From contig NZ_PPDK01000001.1 of assembly GCF_003074135.1 (NCBI RefSeq), positions 3,348,001-3,412,000 on the forward strand: a stretch of 64,000 nt of DNA. Reading direction: 5' to 3'. The position numbers and the translations under genes were made by a program. This DNA is from Euzebya tangerina (GTDB lineage: Bacteria > Actinomycetota > Nitriliruptoria > Euzebyales > Euzebyaceae). The notes under the pieces were generated by a model. That model searched no databases, had not been told where the DNA came from, and saw nothing but the letters and a program-made list of their open reading frames with translations. Numbering within the stretch: the first letter of the stretch is position 1; every line of letters starts with the position of its first letter. Positions 36,881-50,952 of the stretch are shown in pieces.

Positions 36881-37617
36881 GCCGCGCAAAGCCGGCTGCT
36901 GATCGGCGGATCCTGATGGTCGTGCCGACGCTCAACGAGGACGCGTCGGTCGAGAAGGTGCTCAGCGGGGTGCTGGACACCGGGGCCGATGTCCTGGTTG
37001 TGGATGATGGCTCGCAGGACCAGACCGTGCCGATCGTGGAGCGTGTGGCTGCCAGTCGGCCGGGGGTCCACCTGATGCAGCGGGGGCGGAAGCTGGGTCT
37101 GGGCTCGGCCTACCGCGACGGGTTCCGGTGGGGGATGCGGCGTGGCTACGACGTGTTCGGGGAGATGGACGCCGACCTGTCCCACGACCCTGGCAGTCTG
37201 CCCGATCTGATCGCGGGGCTCGAGGTCGCGGACCTCGTCATCGGCTCGCGGTACGTGGCCGGCGGGGCAGTTGAGGCCTGGCCGGTCTCACGACGCTGGC
37301 TGTCGCAGGGTGGCAACGCCTACGTGCGGCTGTGGACCGGTCTGCCGGTGCGGGACTGCACCGCCGGGTTTCGGCTGTACCACCGCGAGGTCATCCAGGC
37401 GATCGACATGGCCTTGGTCCACTCCGAGGGGTACGCCTTCCAGATCGAGATGGGCCTGCGGACCTGGCGGCTGGGGTTCGACATCCTCGAGGTTCCGATC
37501 ACCTTCACCGAACGGCAGGAGGGCGTGTCGAAGATGAGCAAGGCGATCGTGGCCGAAGCGCTCTGGCGGGTCCCGATGTGGGCCCGCCACCGTGGCGTCC
37601 GCCAGCGGCGTCGCTGA
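36877..37617 (+). CDS. polyprenol-phosphate mannosyltransferase-like glycosyltransferase (DPM1/Ppm1 type, GT2)
   Basis: 246 residues; TTG start overlaps the PBP stop by 4 bp. GT2 core: ILMVVPTLNEDASVEKV, VVDDGSQD, and the catalytic EMDADLSHDP; then DCTAGFRLYHREV, characteristic of dolichol/polyprenol-phosphate mannose synthases. The product would make polyprenol-phosphate-mannose for protein or lipid mannosylation. No C-terminal membrane domain. Repeat array A-left begins within 20 bp of its stop codon. Confidence 0.9.
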   Translation: MSRAKPAADRRILMVVPTLNEDASVEKVLSGVLDTGADVLVVDDGSQDQTVPIVERVAASRPGVHLMQRGRKLGLGSAYRDGFRWGMRRGYDVFGEMDADLSHDPGSLPDLIAGLEVADLVIGSRYVAGGAVEAWPVSRRWLSQGGNAYVRLWTGLPVRDCTAGFRLYHREVIQAIDMALVHSEGYAFQIEMGLRTWRLGFDILEVPITFTERQEGVSKMSKAIVAEALWRVPMWARHRGVRQRRR

Positions 37618-37632
37618 TCCGGGGGCCGCTCT

Positions 37633-37792
37633 ACTCCCGGTACACGGTCGCTGATCCGGGGCCCGCTCTACTTTCGGTACACGGTCTCGCCGGCCCACTC
37701 TCGGTACACGATCTCATCGGCCCACTTTCGGTACACGATCTCGCCGGCCCACTCTCGGTACACGATCTCATCGGCCCCACTTTCGGTACGCA
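37633..37792 (+). repeat. locus A left array: 27-bp tandem repeats of motif ACTYTCGGTACACG
   Basis: Six copies start at 37633, 37670, 37697, 37724, 37751 and 37779. From the second copy on the period is 27-28 bp. ACTTTC copies (followed by ...CTCGCCGGCCC) and ACTCTC copies (followed by ...CTCATCGGCCC) alternate, giving a 54-bp higher-order unit. All copies point the same way, toward the nuclease gene. No ORF or spacer variety is present. Confidence 0.9.
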
Positions 37793-37901
37793 AGTGGCGG
37801 CGGCTCACGGCTCGGTGTGCTGAGAGTTCTCCCTGAGCCGCACCCTTCGAACTCTGGGAACACGCTGTGAGACGAGCAGCCGCCTGTCGTGTACCGAAAG
37901 T
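37779..37901. repeat. two imperfect inverted-arm pairs downstream of nuclease A
   Basis: The arm at 37779 faces a degenerate inverted arm GGTGTGCTGAGAGT (37814-37827; weak, 9 of 14). A clearer pair is ACTCTGGGAACACG (37851-37864) against CGTGTACCGAAAGT (37888-37901), 11 of 14 positions pairing across 23 bp. They lie between the tandem array and the 3' end of the nuclease A gene. Confidence 0.6.
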
Positions 37902-37944
37902 CCTCGTCACCCCTGCCCGTCCGCTAGGTGGGGTGTGGGGTGCG

Positions 37945-38943
37945 CTACCCCGTCGGAGCCAACGTGTGGAGGTCGGTACGCCGAAGCTCGGACGCAGGGA
38001 GTGCCGGACAGACGAGTTCGCCTTTGAGGATCTGCTGTTCCCTCCAACGCCGGACTCCGTGGATGAACTCAGCCAGGCCAGCTGGATCTTGGAGCATGGA
38101 CTTCGTGACGACGATCACTCGGTACCCAAGGCGCTCGAGTGCGTAGCGTCGGGAGGCGTCCCGATCCGCCGAACCGTCATGGGGGCTTCCGTCGTACTCG
38201 ATGATCAAGCCCGCGGAGAGGAAGACGAAGTCCACCCGGAGCTTCCCGTGAACGGTGACCTGACAGTCGGGCAGGGGCGGGAACGGCTCGAACACCTCGC
38301 GGAACAGTCGTCGTTCGCCCTCGCTCTCCTGGTTGAACGCCCCGGAGGACCAGAAGTCCAGCAGCCGTTTCGCTCCTGCTCCGGGGAGACTTCGCCAGTG
38401 CTCCACCGCCTCCTCGAGGCGAAGCACTCGCGCGCTGCGCAACGAGTCGACCGCTGAGCGGACCGCGGGGTCTGACAGTTGGCCGGGCAGCGCCGCGTCC
38501 GCCAACGCCCGGGCAGGACTCGCGAGCGGTAGCCCTCGGACTCGCCAGACATCTACGTCGTCCATGCGGACCCTCCGGGGTCGGTACACCTCCGGCGCGG
38601 TGCGTGGACTTCGAGAACGGTCCACCAGGACCAGGGGTCTCATCGGAAGGGTGAAGCCGGCCGCGTCGAAGAGTGCCAGAGCGGCCCCGCCGGTGATCGC
38701 GACCGCATCCTTGCCCTCAACAGCTCGCTGGGAGAGGTAGCGGACCGGAACGTGGAGGCACTGATCAGGTGGGCGGCGACCCTGAGCCAATCGGTAGATG
38801 CCGTGCAGGAGCCGCTCGGTGTCTCCGTCATGGGCCCACGAGGCCGCCACGAGTCGATTGACCCCCACCCGTCTCAGCTGTGCGGCGGAGAGGATGCGGC
38901 CGGGATCGGCCTTGAATGCGTCGATGACGTGCTTTGGAATCAT
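37945..38943 (-). CDS. nuclease A: AbiEi-like N-terminus plus DUF559/Vsr-like endonuclease C-terminus
   Basis: 332 residues. Residues 1-55 form an AbiEi/type IV antitoxin-like winged helix (SAAQLRRVGVNRLVAASWAH...LLHGIYRLA). A central region includes ITGGAALALFDAAGF and GLPLASPARALADAALPG. Residues ~205-300 resemble DUF559/Vsr nucleases, with acids Glu208/Glu210, Asp238 in RVDFVF, Glu249 and Asp251 in LIIEYDGSPH, and His255. ATG at 38943 has no strong ribosome site. There is no adjacent AbiEii toxin. Both flanks carry repeat arrays of one private motif. A paralogue of the same design lies at 47250-48161. Confidence 0.7.
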   Translation of the reverse strand: MIPKHVIDAFKADPGRILSAAQLRRVGVNRLVAASWAHDGDTERLLHGIYRLAQGRRPPDQCLHVPVRYLSQRAVEGKDAVAITGGAALALFDAAGFTLPMRPLVLVDRSRSPRTAPEVYRPRRVRMDDVDVWRVRGLPLASPARALADAALPGQLSDPAVRSAVDSLRSARVLRLEEAVEHWRSLPGAGAKRLLDFWSSGAFNQESEGERRLFREVFEPFPPLPDCQVTVHGKLRVDFVFLSAGLIIEYDGSPHDGSADRDASRRYALERLGYRVIVVTKSMLQDPAGLAEFIHGVRRWREQQILKGELVCPALPASELRRTDLHTLAPTG

Positions 38944-39053
38944 GCTGTCAGGGTGCGCGATCGCAGGCGACGTCCGAGGCGCCCTGTGGACAACCTGTGA
39001 ATAACCGAGCCCACGCGGTCGCCGCAGGCGTTCTGGCGACTTGGCCCCATCTG

Positions 39054-39178
39054 ACTCTCAGTACACGATTCGACCCCACTCGCGCCCTGCCCGTGCACCC
39101 AGAGTCACAGATGAGCAGGTCAGAGGGGCCCTCTCGGTACAGGCACCGGTGATGTTGCAGACGTGGTGCACCGAGAGT
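39054..39178. repeat. two inverted-arm pairs upstream of nuclease A
   Basis: Pair 1: ACTCTCAGTACACG (39054-39067) with CGTGCACCCAGAGT (39092-39105), 11 of 14 pairing. Pair 2: CTCTCGGTACA (39131-39141) with TGCACCGAGAG (39167-39177), where CTCTCGGT/ACCGAGAG is a perfect 8-bp stem. The spans (48-52 bp) match the pair on the other side of the gene. Confidence 0.75.
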
Positions 39179-39313
39179 CGGCAGCACGGCCACGATGTAC
39201 CGAGAGTCGGCCCTGAAGGCCGCGATGTACTCAGAGTCGGCCACGGCGCACCGAAAGTCGGCAGCACGGCCAGTACCCAGAGTTGGCCCCGAAGACCACC
39301 GTGTACCGAGAGT
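39165..39313 (-). repeat. locus A right array: inverted copies of the same motif
   Basis: Six copies of CGTGTACCGAGAGT-like sequence at 39165, 39194, 39224, 39245, 39270 and 39300, at intervals of 21-30 bp, mostly followed by CGGCC or CGGCA. The orientation is opposite to the left array, so both arrays face the nuclease gene. The last copy ends 28 bp before the 3' end of the SCO6745 gene. Confidence 0.88.
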
Positions 39314-39340
39314 CGGGATCAGGGCCCGGAGTGGACCGGC

Positions 39341-44417: not shown

Positions 44418-45260
44418 TCAGGCGGGCGCGTCGGGGCGGGGGTTGCGGTCGGCGATGGCGGACCCGGCCGACAACCGGTCGCCCCGGGCGTCGGCCACCT
44501 GACGGGCGCGCTCGGCCACCTCGTCCTCCTCACGCTCGGCGTATCCGTCGGCGTCGATCTGGGCGACGATCGGGTAGAGGCCGCGAACGGTGTCGGGTCC
44601 ACCGGTGGCGGAGTCCTCGTCGGCCGCATCCCACAGGGCCGATATGGTCAGGTCGACGGCCTCATCGGCGCCCATGCCGCGTTCCCAACGGGCCTTCAAC
44701 GATGCGCGGGCGTGCAGTCCTCCCGAGCCGGTCGCCGAGAACCGGCGCTCCTCATACCGGCCGCCGGCCACGTCGAAGTCGAAGATCCGGCCCACCTCGG
44801 AGCGGCGGTCGTAGCCCGCGAAAAGCGGGACGATGACCAGACCCTGCATGGCCATCGGGAGGTTGCCGCGGACCATGCTCGCCAGCTTGTTGGCCTTGCC
44901 CTCCAGTGACAGCTCGCTGCCCTCGACCTTCTCATAGTGCTCGAGCTCCGTGGCGAACACCTTGGCCAGTTCGATCGCCGGGCCGGCTGAGCCGGAGATC
45001 CCGACCGCCGACACGCGGTCGGTCTGGAAGATCTTGCGCATGTCCCGCTTGGAGATCAGGTTGCCGGCGGTCGCCCGACGGTCACCGGCGATCACCACAC
45101 CACCCTCGTAGACCGCGGCGACGATCGTCGTGCCCTCGACGTGCGGGAGGTGACCAGCCGGCTCACCGGGCCAGTCGAGTGGGGAGATCCGGCGGATCAG
45201 GTCGCTGAAGGATGAGCCGGAGTAGTCGAACGGATCGGTGCGGGCCAGCCGGTCGGTCAT
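44418..45260 (-). CDS. prcB: 20S proteasome beta subunit (with propeptide)
   Basis: 280 residues. The propeptide is 43 residues; autocleavage in HVEGTTIVAAV would free the nucleophile Thr44 (mature Thr1). The partner residues Asp60 (mature 17, GDRRAT) and Lys76 (mature 33, RDMRKIF) are present, as is VSAVGISGSAGPAIE. Catalytic subunit of the proteasome. It follows pup by 28 bp. Confidence 0.97.
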   Translation of the reverse strand: MTDRLARTDPFDYSGSSFSDLIRRISPLDWPGEPAGHLPHVEGTTIVAAVYEGGVVIAGDRRATAGNLISKRDMRKIFQTDRVSAVGISGSAGPAIELAKVFATELEHYEKVEGSELSLEGKANKLASMVRGNLPMAMQGLVIVPLFAGYDRRSEVGRIFDFDVAGGRYEERRFSATGSGGLHARASLKARWERGMGADEAVDLTISALWDAADEDSATGGPDTVRGLYPIVAQIDADGYAEREEDEVAERARQVADARGDRLSAGSAIADRNPRPDAPA

Positions 45261-45288
45261 AGATGCCGAACGCTACCGCCGGGTTGAA

Positions 45289-45477
45289 CTACTCGCCGCC
45301 CTTCTGGACGTAGTTCTTGACGAACTCCTCGGCGTTCTCCTCGAGCACACCATCGATCTCATCGAGCAGGTCATCGACGTCGGAGGTGTCGACTTCGGGG
45401 CTCTCGCTGTCGACCGTGGCGTCCTGCTCCTCGGTCTGCTTGCCCTTCTGCTTGCGGACCTGACCGCCGTCGCTCAT
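45289..45477 (-). CDS. pup: prokaryotic ubiquitin-like protein Pup (ends GGE)
   Basis: 62 residues, acidic and probably unstructured, with the helical Mpa-binding part ...VDDLLDEIDGVLEENAEEFV and the C-terminus YVQKGGE. It encodes a terminal Glu directly (GAG then TAG), so deamidation by Dop is not needed for conjugation. Located between dop and prcB, the usual order. Confidence 0.97.
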   Translation of the reverse strand: MSDGGQVRKQKGKQTEEQDATVDSESPEVDTSDVDDLLDEIDGVLEENAEEFVKNYVQKGGE

Positions 45478-45515
45478 GGGGTCTCCTCTGCGTCGTCGTC
45501 TGCTACACGACCAGT

Positions 45516-47015
45516 CTAGCCGCGGAGCCGGTCCAGGAGGTCTCTTGCCGTGTCGGCGTTGTCGATCAGTTCACCCACCATGGCCTCGGTCCCACGGGTC
45601 GGGTCCATCATGGGGACGCGCTGGAGGGTCTCCCCGCCGACGTCGAAGATCATCGAGTCCCAGCCTGCGGCAGTCACGTTGTCGCGGTACTTCTCGAGGC
45701 AGCGACCGCGGAAGTAGGCGCGGGTATCGCGGGGTGGGTTGGCGATCGCGTGCTGGACGTCGTCCTCGCTGACCATGGTCTCGACCCGGCCGGTGGCGAC
45801 GAGGCGGTTGTACAGGCCCTTGTCGCGCCGGACATCGGAGTACTGGATGTCGATCAGCTTGAGCTTCTGGTCGTCCCAGTTCAGGCCGTCCCGCTCGACG
45901 TAGCGCTGCATGATCCGGTACTTCGTGACCCAGTCGACCACGCCGTCCAGGCTCATGGGGTCGTCCTCGATGGCGGTGATGAGGCGGTCCCAGACCGACA
46001 GGACCTCATTCGCCCAGTCGGGGGCGTCGTGGCTCGCGACCCACTTCTGGGCCCACTCGAGGTAATGCCACTGCAGTTCCATGGGTCGGACCTTGCGGCC
46101 GTCGACCAGACTGACCGTCTTGCGGCACGTGAGGTCGTGGGAGACGGCGTGCAGCGTCGTGACCGGACTCGAGATGGCCGGGGCGGCGGGGAGGAACCCG
46201 TCCTCGATCATCCCGAGGACCAGCGCGGTCTGACCAACCTTGAGGAAGGTGCAGATCTCGCTCATGTTGGCGTCGCCGATGATCACGTGGAGGCGGCGGA
46301 AGCGGTCGGGGTCGGCGTGCGGCTCGTCGCGGGTGTTGATGATTGGCCGCTTGAGGGTCGTCTCCAGCCCGACCTCCACTTCGAAGAAGTCGGCACGCTG
46401 GGTGACCTGGTAGTCGACCTCCGCGCCGGGGAACTCGGTGCCGACACGGCCCGCCCCCACGAGGGCCTGGCGGGTGATGAACAGCGGGGTGAGCTGCCGG
46501 ACGATCTCGCCGAACGGCGTCTCCCGGGCGACGATGTAGTTCTCGTGCATCCCGTAGGCGGCACCCTTGCCATCGGTGTTGTTCTTGGTGATCAGGATCC
46601 GGCCGGGGTTGGCGTGGTCGTGGCCGGGGATGAGCGGGGCGGCCTTCTCGGCGGCGATCTCGAGGACCCGCTCACCGGCTTTGTCCCAGATGACGGCATC
46701 CCGCGGGTTGGTGACCTCGGGGGAGGAGTACTCCGGGTGGGCGTGGTCGACGTAGAACCGGGCGCCGTTGGTTAGGATCGAGTTGGCCAGCCCGATGTCG
46801 TCGTCGAGGGCTGGATCGTGGGCGTCCTGCTGGGTGTAGCCGCGGGCGTCCTGGAGGGGGTCTTCGTCCTCGTAGTCCCACTTGGCCCGGCTGCGGCCGT
46901 CGGCGTTGTAGGCGTTGACGACCAGTGATGAGGCCAGCACCGGGTTGAACTCGGGCCGCCCGATGACGGAGATGCCGAACTCGGTCTCGATGCCGATGGT
47001 TGGGGGGAGGGCCAT
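45516..47015 (-). CDS. dop: depupylase/deamidase Dop
   Basis: 499 residues; starts MALPPTIGIETEFGISV with the metal Glu10/Glu12 and the nucleophilic Asp90 in ARFYVDHAHPEYSSPEVTNP. Contains the Dop-specific insertion after ~residue 40 (SRAKWDYEDEDPLQDARGYT). Because Pup here already ends in Glu, its main job must be depupylation. It lies 38 bp upstream of pup. Confidence 0.97.
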   Translation of the reverse strand: MALPPTIGIETEFGISVIGRPEFNPVLASSLVVNAYNADGRSRAKWDYEDEDPLQDARGYTQQDAHDPALDDDIGLANSILTNGARFYVDHAHPEYSSPEVTNPRDAVIWDKAGERVLEIAAEKAAPLIPGHDHANPGRILITKNNTDGKGAAYGMHENYIVARETPFGEIVRQLTPLFITRQALVGAGRVGTEFPGAEVDYQVTQRADFFEVEVGLETTLKRPIINTRDEPHADPDRFRRLHVIIGDANMSEICTFLKVGQTALVLGMIEDGFLPAAPAISSPVTTLHAVSHDLTCRKTVSLVDGRKVRPMELQWHYLEWAQKWVASHDAPDWANEVLSVWDRLITAIEDDPMSLDGVVDWVTKYRIMQRYVERDGLNWDDQKLKLIDIQYSDVRRDKGLYNRLVATGRVETMVSEDDVQHAIANPPRDTRAYFRGRCLEKYRDNVTAAGWDSMIFDVGGETLQRVPMMDPTRGTEAMVGELIDNADTARDLLDRLRG

Positions 47016-47048
47016 AGATCGAGCCTACCGGCGCCCTGTGCCATTCCG

Positions 47049-47092
47049 GGTGTGTCGGCTCTGCGTGGGCCTCCACGCGGACCCGACACAGC
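47049..47092. repeat. locus B 44-bp element, copy 1 (upstream side)
   Basis: Arms GGTGTGTC (47049-47056) and GACACAGC (47085-47092). TGTGTCGG pairs perfectly with CCGACACA, and an inner stem GCGTGG/CCACGC (47063-47068/47073-47078) closes a 4-nt loop. The result is a near-cruciform hairpin. Exactly 44 bp, as are the other three copies. Confidence 0.85.
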
Positions 47093-47116
47093 TCCCATCG
47101 ACTGGCCCGGCCACGG

Positions 47117-47160
47117 GGTGTGTCATGTCTGAGCGCCTGCGCACGCTGACCTGACACGCC
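47117..47160. repeat. locus B 44-bp element, copy 2 (upstream side)
   Basis: Arms GGTGTGTC (47117-47124) and GACACGCC (47153-47160), enclosing 28 bp with an inner AGCG/CGCT stem (47132-47135/47144-47147). It lies ~90 bp before the nuclease B start codon. Confidence 0.85.
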
Positions 47161-47249
47161 CACGACTCGACACGACTTCGTCAACGGGTTGTCCACAGAT
47201 CGGCAGAGAAAGCTCTCGCCGAGCCGCCCACATCCGGGACTCTGCTGCT

Positions 47250-48161
47250 GTGAACAAGGCTGAGCGAGACACGGTTGACCGACTCATGCGAACGCACCGC
47301 GGCGTGATCACACCTGAGGTGGCGCGTCGTGGTGGCCTGACGCGACACAAGCTCGTGAACGCGCACGTTTCAGGCGAACTCGTCCGGGTCCGGCACCGCG
47401 TCTACACGACCAGGGGCGCGATAGTCAACTGGGACGACGAGCTCTTCGCCGACCTCGAGGCCTGCTGGCGCAACGCCTACGCCTCGCACTCCGCTGCTCT
47501 GGCGCTCCATGGGCTGCGACACCAGGAGCTCCCGCTTCGGCGAGAGCTCGTCGTCCACGGGAGTGCCCGTCCAACCGTCGCACAGAACGTGGTGGTCCAC
47601 CGGACTCGCCGCCTCGAACGCTTCGACCTCACGAAGATCAACGGGATCCCGTGCACGACGGTGGAGCGGGCGCTCATCGATGTCGCAGGACGGCTGTCGG
47701 AGCGGGCGCGCCTCGAGCTGATGGACGATGCAGTGATGAAGGGCTTGGCTGACCGAGACCTGCTGCACGGCCGGTGCCTCGACCTCGTCAGTGGGCGTTC
47801 TGGCGTCAGAACGCTGCTGGAGGCAACTCGACCCGGGGCTGAGCTGGCATTCAAGTCCAGCTTGGAGAAGGCGGGCCTCGAGCTGCTTCACCGGGCGGGG
47901 GTGCGGGACATGCGCATCAACGTGATCCCCGAACGAGCGCCCGCCGCGGGGGTCACGGATGTGGTGTCGGAGACCGATCGACTGATCGTGGACTGGGACG
48001 GTCTGCGCTTCCACAGCTCCCGCCGTGCGCGCGAGCGCGACAACGAGAAGTCCAACCAGTGCGCTCTTGCCGGCTATACGTTGCTGCGTTTCACCTGGAA
48101 CCACGTTCACCATCAGCCGGTCTACGTGATCGACCTGGCGCGGCGGACGGTGGATGCCTGA
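47250..48161 (+). CDS. nuclease B: AbiEi-like N-terminus plus DUF559/Vsr-like C-terminus
   Basis: 303 residues from GTG 47250. The same design as nuclease A: N-terminal winged helix (THRGVITPEVARRGGLTRHK...VRVRHRVYTT), a middle with SAALALHGLRHQELPLR and GIPCTTVERALIDVAGRL, and a C-terminal ~110 residues resembling DUF559/Vsr nucleases. Candidate active-site acids are Asp237 (GVTDVVSET), Asp248/Asp250 (LIVDWDGLRFH) and His255. It lacks the IIEYDG form of A (Asp replaces Glu), so activity is uncertain. Flanked by two 44-bp elements on each side. It interrupts the space between dop and arc. Confidence 0.7.
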   Translation: MNKAERDTVDRLMRTHRGVITPEVARRGGLTRHKLVNAHVSGELVRVRHRVYTTRGAIVNWDDELFADLEACWRNAYASHSAALALHGLRHQELPLRRELVVHGSARPTVAQNVVVHRTRRLERFDLTKINGIPCTTVERALIDVAGRLSERARLELMDDAVMKGLADRDLLHGRCLDLVSGRSGVRTLLEATRPGAELAFKSSLEKAGLELLHRAGVRDMRINVIPERAPAAGVTDVVSETDRLIVDWDGLRFHSSRRARERDNEKSNQCALAGYTLLRFTWNHVHHQPVYVIDLARRTVDA

Positions 48162-48202
48162 GGTGCCGGGCCCCATTCGAGAGGTGCCGGGCCCCCATTC
48201 GA
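48159..48202 (+). repeat. tandem 21/22-bp repeat (two copies) after nuclease B
   Basis: GAGGTGCCGGGCCCCATTCGA occurs at 48160-48180 and again, with one extra C, at 48181-48202, overlapping the nuclease stop codon. Each copy begins GAGGTG like the arms of the following 44-bp elements. Confidence 0.8.
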
Positions 48203-48246
48203 GGTGTGTCGTCTCGGCGTGACAGCACACTCGGAGATGACACACC
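48203..48246. repeat. locus B 44-bp element, copy 3 (downstream side)
   Basis: Perfect arms GGTGTGTC (48203-48210) and GACACACC (48239-48246) enclose 28 bp containing GGCGTGACAGCAC, shared with copy 4. Confidence 0.88.
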
Positions 48247-48273
48247 TGGGGCGTTTCACCAGCCAGCAGCGGA

Positions 48274-48317
48274 GGTGTGTCGGACGTTGGCGTGACAGCA
48301 CGCGGAGTCGACACACC
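48274..48317. repeat. locus B 44-bp element, copy 4 (downstream side)
   Basis: Perfect arms GGTGTGTC (48274-48281) and GACACACC (48310-48317), inner stem GCGTG/CACGC with loop ACAG. The core GGCGTGACAGCAC is identical to copy 3; starts are 71 bp apart. Confidence 0.88.
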
Positions 48318-48365
48318 CCACGTTCGACCGGCCACCGGCCGGCCAACCGGATCGAGCCTACTCAG

Positions 48366-49073
48366 CTAGACCGGAGCTGGGAGCGGGACCGCGACCCCGT
48401 CCGGAAAGCCCTCCCCTTTCGCGCCGGTGCCCGAGAGCAGGTAGACCCGTCCCGCCCCGTGCGACCGCCACTCCCCCGTCCCCGGTTCCCAGACCACGGC
48501 GGTCTCCTCATCCACGCCCACGACCGCCACGCCGCTCGAGACCAACTGGGCTGCCAATCCCGCGAGCCGCTGCGCGAATCCGAACTTGTCGAAGTGCGGG
48601 ATGGTGGTGATCGCTCCCGCCAGGCCCAACCCCTCCACCGTCCCACCACGCATGGACAGGGTCTGCGATCCCAGCGCCATCGCCCCCGCCGAGCACCCCG
48701 CCAGCGCGGCCCCAGCCGCCCATTGCTGCGCGATCGCCGCCGCCAGCGCCGTCCCCCGGAGCGTCTCGGCGAGGAACGCCGGATTCCCACCGGAGAGGTA
48801 GATCAGGCCACAGCCCTCCAGCGCCTCGACCGACTGATCCCCGTCGGCATCCTCGGCGGTCCGGACGTCGACCTCGACGACCTCAGCCCCCAGCGCGTCG
48901 TAGTGGCGGTGAGCCAGGTCGAACCAGCGGCGGACACTGCGGTCACCCTCCGGGGCTGCGGCTGTCGGGATCACGGCCACACGGGCCGGCGCACCCTCGA
49001 GCAGGATCGTGTCCACCACCGACATGGCCGGGAGGAACTCGCCGCTCCCGACCAGGGCCAGTCGGCCACTCAT
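48366..49073 (-). CDS. peptidase S51/cyanophycinase-like protein
   Basis: 235 residues from ATG 49073 (the upstream open frame is low-complexity). It shows the S51 flavodoxin-like fold with the nucleophile elbow AGCSAGAMALG (Ser in GCSAG), LIYLSGGNPAFLAETL, and VVGVDEETAVVW. Related enzymes are alpha-aspartyl dipeptidase and cyanophycinase; the exact substrate is unknown. No signal peptide. It sits between arc and nuclease locus B on the minus strand. Confidence 0.85.
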   Translation of the reverse strand: MSGRLALVGSGEFLPAMSVVDTILLEGAPARVAVIPTAAAPEGDRSVRRWFDLAHRHYDALGAEVVEVDVRTAEDADGDQSVEALEGCGLIYLSGGNPAFLAETLRGTALAAAIAQQWAAGAALAGCSAGAMALGSQTLSMRGGTVEGLGLAGAITTIPHFDKFGFAQRLAGLAAQLVSSGVAVVGVDEETAVVWEPGTGEWRSHGAGRVYLLSGTGAKGEGFPDGVAVPLPAPV

Positions 49074-49143
49074 GCCATCGGACTCGCCCGAACCCGACTG
49101 GCCCGAACCCGACGAGACGGAACTCGGGCCGGCGGCGAGAGGA

Positions 49144-50952
49144 TCACAGGTACTGACCGGTCTGGACGCTCTCGATGGATTTGCCCGGCTCGGCGCCATC
49201 GCCGATCAGCGTGCGGACGTAGACGATCCGCTCGCCCTTCTTCCCGCTGATCCGCGCCCAGTCGTCGGGGTTGGTGGTGTTGGGGAGGTCCTCGTTCTCC
49301 TTGAACTCGTCGCGAATGGCCACCCGCAGGTCCTCCTCCCGGATGCCCTTCTGCCCCTCGTCAAGGAAGCGCTTGATGGCGAGCTTCTTCGCCCGGGCGA
49401 CGACGTTCTCGATCATGGCGCCGGAGTTGAAGTCCTTGAAGTACAGGACCTCCTTGTCCCCGTTGGCGTAGGTGACCTCGAGGAAGCGGTTGGACTCGTC
49501 GTCGGCGTACATCCGCTCGACCGTGGCATCCACCAGGGCGTCGCAGGCCCGCGACTCCTCCCCCTCGTGCTGCTTCACCAGATCGGGGTGGAGGGGCAGT
49601 CCCTCGTGGAGGTAGATGCGGAAGATCTCGCGGGCGGCCTCCTTGTCGGGTCGCTCGATCTTGATCTTCACGTCCAGCCGGCCGGGCCGCAGGATGGCGG
49701 GATCGATCATGTCCTCGCGGTTGGAGGCCCCGATCACGATGACGTCCTTCAGGGTCTCGACGCCGTCGATCTCGCTGAGCAGCTGCGGCACGATCGTCGT
49801 CTCGACGTCGGAGGACACACCCGACCCTCGGGTCCGGAAGATCGAGTCCATCTCGTCGAAGAACACGATGACGGGGTGGCCCTCGGCGACCTTCTCGCGT
49901 GCGCGGTGGAAGATCATCCGGATCTGCCGCTCGGTCTCCCCCACGTACTTGTTGAGGAGTTCGGGACCCTTGATGTTGAGGAAGTAGCTCTTGGGCGGGA
50001 TGGGGTCACCGTTCTCGTCACGATCGTCGACCCGGCCCTCCTTCTCGGCCACCCGCTTGGCCAGCGAGTTGGCGACCGCCTTGGCGATCATCGTCTTCCC
50101 GCAGCCGGGCGGCCCGTACAGCAGGATCCCCTTGGGCGGGCGCAGCTCGTGCTCGATGAAGAGGTCGGCGTGCAGGAAGGGCAGTTCCACCGCGTCCTGG
50201 ATGGCTTCGATCTGCGGCCCGAGGCCACCGATGTCGGTGTAGTCGATGTCGGGAACCTCCTCCAGCACCAGCTCCTCGACCTCGGGCCGCACCATCTTCT
50301 CCAGGGCATACCCCGACCGGCCATCGACCAGCACGTGGTCACCCGCGCGGAGCGGCACGTCCACGAGCGTGTCGGCCATGCGCACGACCTGCTCGTCGTC
50401 GGTGTGGCCGATGACCACCACACGGCCGTCGATCATGACATCCTTGACGGACATGACTTCGCCGACGACCTCGAAGGTGGCGGCCTCCACGACGTTCATC
50501 GCCTCGTTGAGCACGACCTCCTGACCCTGGCGGAGGGCACTTCGATCGACCTCGGGACTCAGGTTGACCCGCAGCTTGCGGTTCTGGCTGAAGATCTCCA
50601 CCGTGTCGTCGTCGGGCCCGACACCGAGGTAGACGCCGTAGCCACTCGGCGGACTGGCAAGCTTTTCCACTTGCTCTCGGAGACCGATGATCTGCTCTCT
50701 GGCCTCCCGCAACGTGTCAGCGAGCTTGGCATTCTGAGCGGCGGTTCCGGTGGCCTGCGCCTTGGCCTCCATGAGGCGTTCCTCCAGCACCCGAACGCGA
50801 CTGGGAGAATCTTCCAGTCGACGTCGTAGGGTGGCCGCCTCATCCTCCAGCAATTGGATCTTCTGCTGCAACTGGGTCGCGTCGACACCCACGTCCTCGG
50901 CCGCAGCACGTTCCCGTGACTCACCGCCACTTGATGACGATCCGGTCGACAT
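49144..50952 (-). CDS. arc: proteasome-associated AAA ATPase ARC/Mpa
   Basis: 602 residues. An N-terminal coiled coil (~25-100) binds Pup, OB domains follow (~105-225), then the AAA domain with Walker A GPPGCGKT (280-287) and Walker [11 protein letters not shown]. The last residues TGQYL carry the proteasome-activating QYL-type tail that docks into the 20S ring. It unfolds pupylated proteins into the proteasome. It is separated from dop by two genes. Confidence 0.97.

Follow-up and report, generated by a model that had tools for sequence, protein, structure and literature searches.

In the actinobacterium Euzebya tangerina, a gene encoding a DUF559 nuclease is bracketed by palindromic elements of precisely 44 bp, two on each side, and these B-type elements almost certainly constitute a real dispersed family tied to the DUF559 nuclease class. 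The bracketing of paralogous genes, the co-occurrence of elements and nucleases in the genus, and the fold predicted for the enzyme make putative recognition or substrate elements of the enclosed protein, nuclease B, the best reading of these sequences. A complete mechanism, in which REP-like elements would be bound, cleaved and copied in partnership with a homing-type nuclease, is given a probability of about 0.55. The features at locus B, numbered within the window (the whole 64-kb stretch of DNA analysed), are the following.

47049..47092, no strand assigned: B-type element 1, 44 bp, upstream of nuclease B, with divergent genes on either side
47117..47160, no strand assigned: B-type element 2, 44 bp, upstream of nuclease B, 68 bp after element 1
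47250..48161, forward strand: nuclease B, 303 aa, GTG start; predicted AbiEi-type N-terminal two thirds followed by a DUF559/EDxHD-type nuclease
48203..48246, no strand assigned: B-type element 3, 44 bp, 41 bp past the nuclease B stop codon
48274..48317, no strand assigned: B-type element 4, 44 bp, 71 bp after element 3

The preliminary description of this DNA had reported four such elements, two per side of the DUF559 gene, with 8-bp arms around 28 bp, and all were found where it had placed them. All four share the left arm GGTGTGTC, and the only departures in the right arm are one change in copy 1 and one in copy 2, copies 3 and 4 being perfect. The inner stem with a 4-nt loop described for copies 1 and 4 is likewise present, as GCGTGG-GCCT-CCACGC and GCGTG-ACAG-CACGC, respectively. 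When folded as single-stranded DNA, all four elements scored better than their shuffles (z from -2.3 to -5.8; -5.6 for the element 1 hairpin), and the exact B-type pattern has two matches in the window and none in shuffled sequence. A scan of genome contigs with a three-row alignment returned one weak relative, and a BLAST-type search found no second copy of the locus as a whole.

The family became apparent at the scale of the genome. The pattern TGTGTCN{16,46}GACACA, which permits 31 interior spacings, occurs at 20 places in the 4.78-Mb genome, 16 of them with exactly 28 bp inside, and the reversed pattern, searched as a control, has no match in the whole genome. With a few arm changes permitted there were 22 copies, four at locus B and 18 at 13 other sites, with several of the dispersed copies paired 60-72 bp apart; since these element counts were taken from pattern searches, they are lower bounds. 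An alignment of the copies that includes flanking sequence shows most arm columns at an identity of about 0.9-1.0, falling sharply to about 0.3 directly beyond the element ends; with so abrupt a limit, the unit is a precisely bounded 44-mer. According to gene calls based on base composition only, 15 dispersed copies are distributed among convergent (eight), tandem (three) and divergent (two) intergenic regions and the interior of predicted ORFs (two), and 10 of the 15 lie 8-18 bp from a stop codon. The preliminary description held that its proposal would fail if the copies were due to chance or were ordinary terminators; many loci proved to carry further copies, and the search for terminator-like sites came back empty. 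Chance was rejected as an origin, the exact pattern being absent from shuffles and the reversed pattern from the genome, and ordinary terminators and known RNA families were rejected as well, given that no intrinsic terminator composed of a stem-loop and a T-run was found in 46900-48500 and no Rfam family was found at locus B.

The predicted architecture of nuclease B joins an AbiEi DNA-binding module to an EDxHD/Vsr-like nuclease. The AbiEi profile from PADLOC matches residues 5-179 (2.7e-22) and DUF559 matches residues 235-295 (5.9e-6). In a structure model built from 30 homologues (mean pLDDT 92.5), the N-terminal two thirds match AbiEi (6y8q, E 2.4e-7) and Rv2827c (1zel), and the C-terminal domain matches 3r3p, the catalytic domain of I-Bth0305I, with a probability of 1.00 and a weak E of 0.023, as well as 3hrl. 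D237, H255 and D264 are invariant among the homologues and E206 is nearly so, and therefore the protein is likely to be an active nuclease. No partner DUF1814 nucleotidyltransferase toxin was found beside nuclease B, the adjacent genes encoding a Pup ligase (45516-47015, by Pfam) and an S51 peptidase. The surrounding segment, 44418-50952 of the window, reads as a Pup-proteasome gene region and also holds ORFs that we take, by sequence reading, to be proteasome-subunit-like and AAA-ATPase-like.

The association between nuclease and palindromes extends to the paralogues. The genome encodes four DUF559 proteins, each bracketed by a different palindrome family (A, B, C and D). The second of these loci in the window, locus A (37610-39320), holds a DUF559 paralogue with its own ACTYTCGGTACAC repeat family on both sides.

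37628..37901, no strand assigned: A-type repeats on one side of nuclease A, ACTYTCGGTACAC half-sites with a mostly 27-bp period and an inverted copy at 37888-37901
37945..38943, reverse strand: nuclease A, 332 aa, DUF559 paralogue
39049..39320, no strand assigned: A-type repeats on the other side of nuclease A, mostly inverted, TGTACCGAGAGT

The A family of palindromes (ACTYTCGGTACACG) spans 37628-39320 of the window; the C family (CACGATCG...CGATCGTG) has copies about 72 bp apart at L025, and the D family (ACGCATGCGTGA...TCACGCATGCGT) is found at L026. A flank-against-flank comparison of 30 long window ORFs singled out the two DUF559 genes (z 14.0 and 8.3), with every other ORF at 2.9 or below. 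Four genomes of the genus together have 11 DUF559 loci, and at 10 of these loci repeats were present on both sides by alignment or inspection; at L029, where the DUF559 gene is truncated, a 72-bp-period array lies on one side only. Taking a flank-similarity z>5 as the threshold, which L171, L179 and L180 pass with flanks that by eye are not palindrome arrays, bracketing was scored for 20/27 and 10/15 class homologues in two further sets, for 11/23 homologues outside the class and for 6/116 control genes (1/116 at z>8). About a quarter to a half of the homologues tested gave no sign of bracketing repeats. One control gene (L244:4517-5770, in G195) has flanks that share a repeat as strongly as those of the nuclease loci (z 13.1).

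Co-occurrence was assessed in a sample of four genomes from one genus (G000, G001, G002 and G003). A-type half-sites number 33 in G000 and 12 in G003 and are absent from G001 and G002, and nuclease A was seen in G000 and G003 only (L019 and L028); the A-type sequence itself differs between genomes, being mostly GGTACA in G000 and GGTGCA in G003. For the D type, the outcome was written down before the search, which returned 16 matches, all in G000, of which 14 enclose exactly 25 bp; G001-G003 had no match, and nuclease D is likewise confined to G000. In each of the four genomes C-type elements are accompanied by a C-type nuclease, intact or truncated. Exceptions were encountered in two genomes. 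A strongly palindromic TGTGTCGG..CCGACACA family in G003 (L081, L089 and L101) has no bracketing nuclease that could be found, and its nuclease may have been lost or be absent from the assembly; G001 carries a subfamily resembling that of the G002 nuclease, for which no bracketing nuclease was found in G001. The partnership of element families with nucleases is well supported.

It had also been claimed that covariation in the inner sequence reveals selection for a two-tier hairpin. This does not hold for the B-type family, in which 74.5% of cells pair as against 74.8% after the 3' letters are shuffled (n=21); against redealt 3' letters, the covariation score of these 21 copies is at chance level. 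Here and in the sister-family tests below, relatedness among copies was left in the data. The B-type inner stem most plausibly arises as a side effect of the similarity between two half-sites, and the independent variation of the two halves fits a dyad of protein half-sites. In the sister families covariation holds only in part. In the 60 C family copies that G001 and G002 provide, Watson-Crick pairing at inner columns 15-20 is 0.67 versus 0.575 when shuffled (p about 0.0005), an excess that is lost once G-T pairs are counted (p 0.15), and pairing in columns 7-13 is mostly below expectation. For the B type of G001 and G002, columns 7-12, which extend the arm, covary, and the core is asymmetrical. 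Thus, of the earlier proposal that the elements are recognition or substrate elements of the enclosed protein, the tie to that protein stands, through the bracketing of paralogues and the two families that track their nuclease, whereas conservation of the hairpin by compensatory changes is not supported in the B-type family.

Several known systems share features with the one described here. REP palindromes are short, extragenic, clustered or tandem sequences with tens of dispersed copies, which bracket one enzyme gene (PMC3116915, PMC3733652), and as in REPIN-RAYT systems, or REPtrons, the palindromes reported here are dispersed and extragenic and bracket an enzyme gene. Mobilisation by a RAYT was rejected, because the Y1/HUH tyrosine transposase family PF01797 was found in none of the four genus genomes and was detected in the E. 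coli positive control. The GTAG (or CGTC) end tag is also absent by reading, the ends being GGTGTGTC/GACACACC and other arms; instead of a Y1/HUH transposase there is a fixed 44-bp layout of two halves and an AbiEi-EDxHD protein. With the overall resemblance and both of these differences in view, the system was filed as REP-like with an unrelated enzyme, and it looks like an enzyme-plus-repeat partnership of a second kind, comparable but unrelated to REP/RAYT. The AbiEi target is a pair of 23-bp inverted repeats with 3 bp between them, and Rv2827c binds two such pairs (PMC7319586). Nuclease B resembles these antitoxins (Streptococcus agalactiae AbiEi and Rv2827c) in the predicted fold of its N-terminal two thirds and contains the AbiEi DNA-binding and C-terminal domains of type IV toxin-antitoxin systems; it differs from them in being fused to a nuclease domain and in having palindromes that lie on both sides of its gene and are dispersed. 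With the EDxHD/Vsr-like nucleases, such as I-Bth0305I and VsrA, it shares a C-terminal fold of PD-(D/E)XK type with conserved acidic and histidine catalytic residues, but unlike the EDxHD homing endonucleases it lies outside any intron or intein, has an AbiEi module and is flanked on both sides by palindromes of its own. For I-Bth0305I itself, dimers form on a target almost 60 bp long (PMC3943268).

Other explanations of the palindromes were weighed. The AbiEi module could act as an autorepressor on palindromes around its own gene, with the dispersed copies being regulatory and the nuclease domain acting elsewhere. Inverted repeats in the promoters of AbiEi and Rv2827c do mediate their autoregulation (PMC7319586), elements 1 and 2 are located in a divergent promoter region, and the B-type halves vary independently, as half-sites would; yet an operator function is unlikely, for the elements occupy both sides of the nuclease gene, the dispersed copies close to stop codons (10/15) sit mostly between convergent genes and outside promoters, and near-identical scattered copies point to copying. 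It is improbable that the nuclease serves in defence, attacking incoming DNA while the palindromes on the host's own chromosome mark it or keep it in check: the AbiEi models come from a phage-defence family, and the DUF559 protein VsrA of Caulobacter triggers a DNA-damage response if its motif lacks methylation (PMC12907096), but tens of copies clustered after genes would be sparse for a protective mark and the neighbours of nuclease B are the Pup ligase and S51 peptidase genes. That the elements are mainly host-maintained, factor-independent bidirectional terminators or mRNA-end hairpins fits their stable folding and their sites just past stop codons between convergent genes, but is very improbable, as such structures would need neither invariant arms, a fixed 28-bp interior nor a cognate nuclease, would not be missing from sister species and would not explain elements 1 and 2 between divergent genes or the lack of a T-run terminator at locus B.

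Under the favoured reading, a partnership of REP-like elements with a homing-type nuclease, the 44-bp elements would be a REP-like population of precisely bounded palindromes whose partner is the protein encoded between them. Each element may consist of two abutting half-sites of about 22 bp with one protein on each, an arrangement that we infer to fit the AbiEi and I-Bth0305I precedents, and the AbiEi module probably binds them. The nuclease would cut or nick, and host repair would then copy elements to intergenic positions, mainly just past stop codons; such copying would also keep the nuclease gene bracketed. That the nuclease drives the copying is a proposition with even or marginally better odds. 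For enzyme-dependent mobility of the palindromes the signs in the genus are indirect, namely the co-occurrence described above and near-identical copies at scattered sites. Scattered elements of G001 (L184, L185, L186 and L187) are identical at 36-39 of 39 positions with unrelated flanks, and the tandem copies at L192 share the spacer too, as after duplication of a 73-bp unit. The elements at L031 and L033, which appear to adjoin the same gene in two species (presumably nusB-like, by reading), are alike within a locus and different between species, a pattern that suggests concerted change.

The phylum sample of 149 genomes contains 84 with AbiEi-EDxHD matches, and one genome has as many as 16. 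In the open-access literature covered, nothing relevant was found on DUF559 together with palindromes or inverted repeats, nor a role assigned to AbiEi/DUF559 fusions. For these fusions, common in Actinobacteria, their own extragenic palindrome families offer a testable partner sequence, and naturally varied pairs of protein and element could reveal how AbiEi modules read DNA. The system also bears on the spread and persistence of short palindromes in bacterial genomes, so far studied mainly with RAYTs. It is tentatively proposed, at slightly less than even odds, that AbiEi-EDxHD proteins form a separate, non-HUH class of REP-type enzymes, each propagating its own palindromes by cleavage and repair and co-evolving with them; if nuclease-driven copying is true, REP-type systems arose more than once, from unrelated enzymes.

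Some individual loci of G001 add to the diversity of these arrangements. L029 (G001:C1:2672183-2675365) holds a C-type nuclease gene lacking its N-terminal part, downstream of which the four-copy array persists with its 72-bp period; the ORF that precedes it is, by reading, presumably IstB-type transposition ATPase-like. A third G001 subfamily (GTGTCGGATCAGTCGACCC...), at L193 and L194, is arranged in tandem with a period of 50 bp instead of 72, and arms similar to those of this subfamily stand on both sides of G001's second B-type nuclease (L172).
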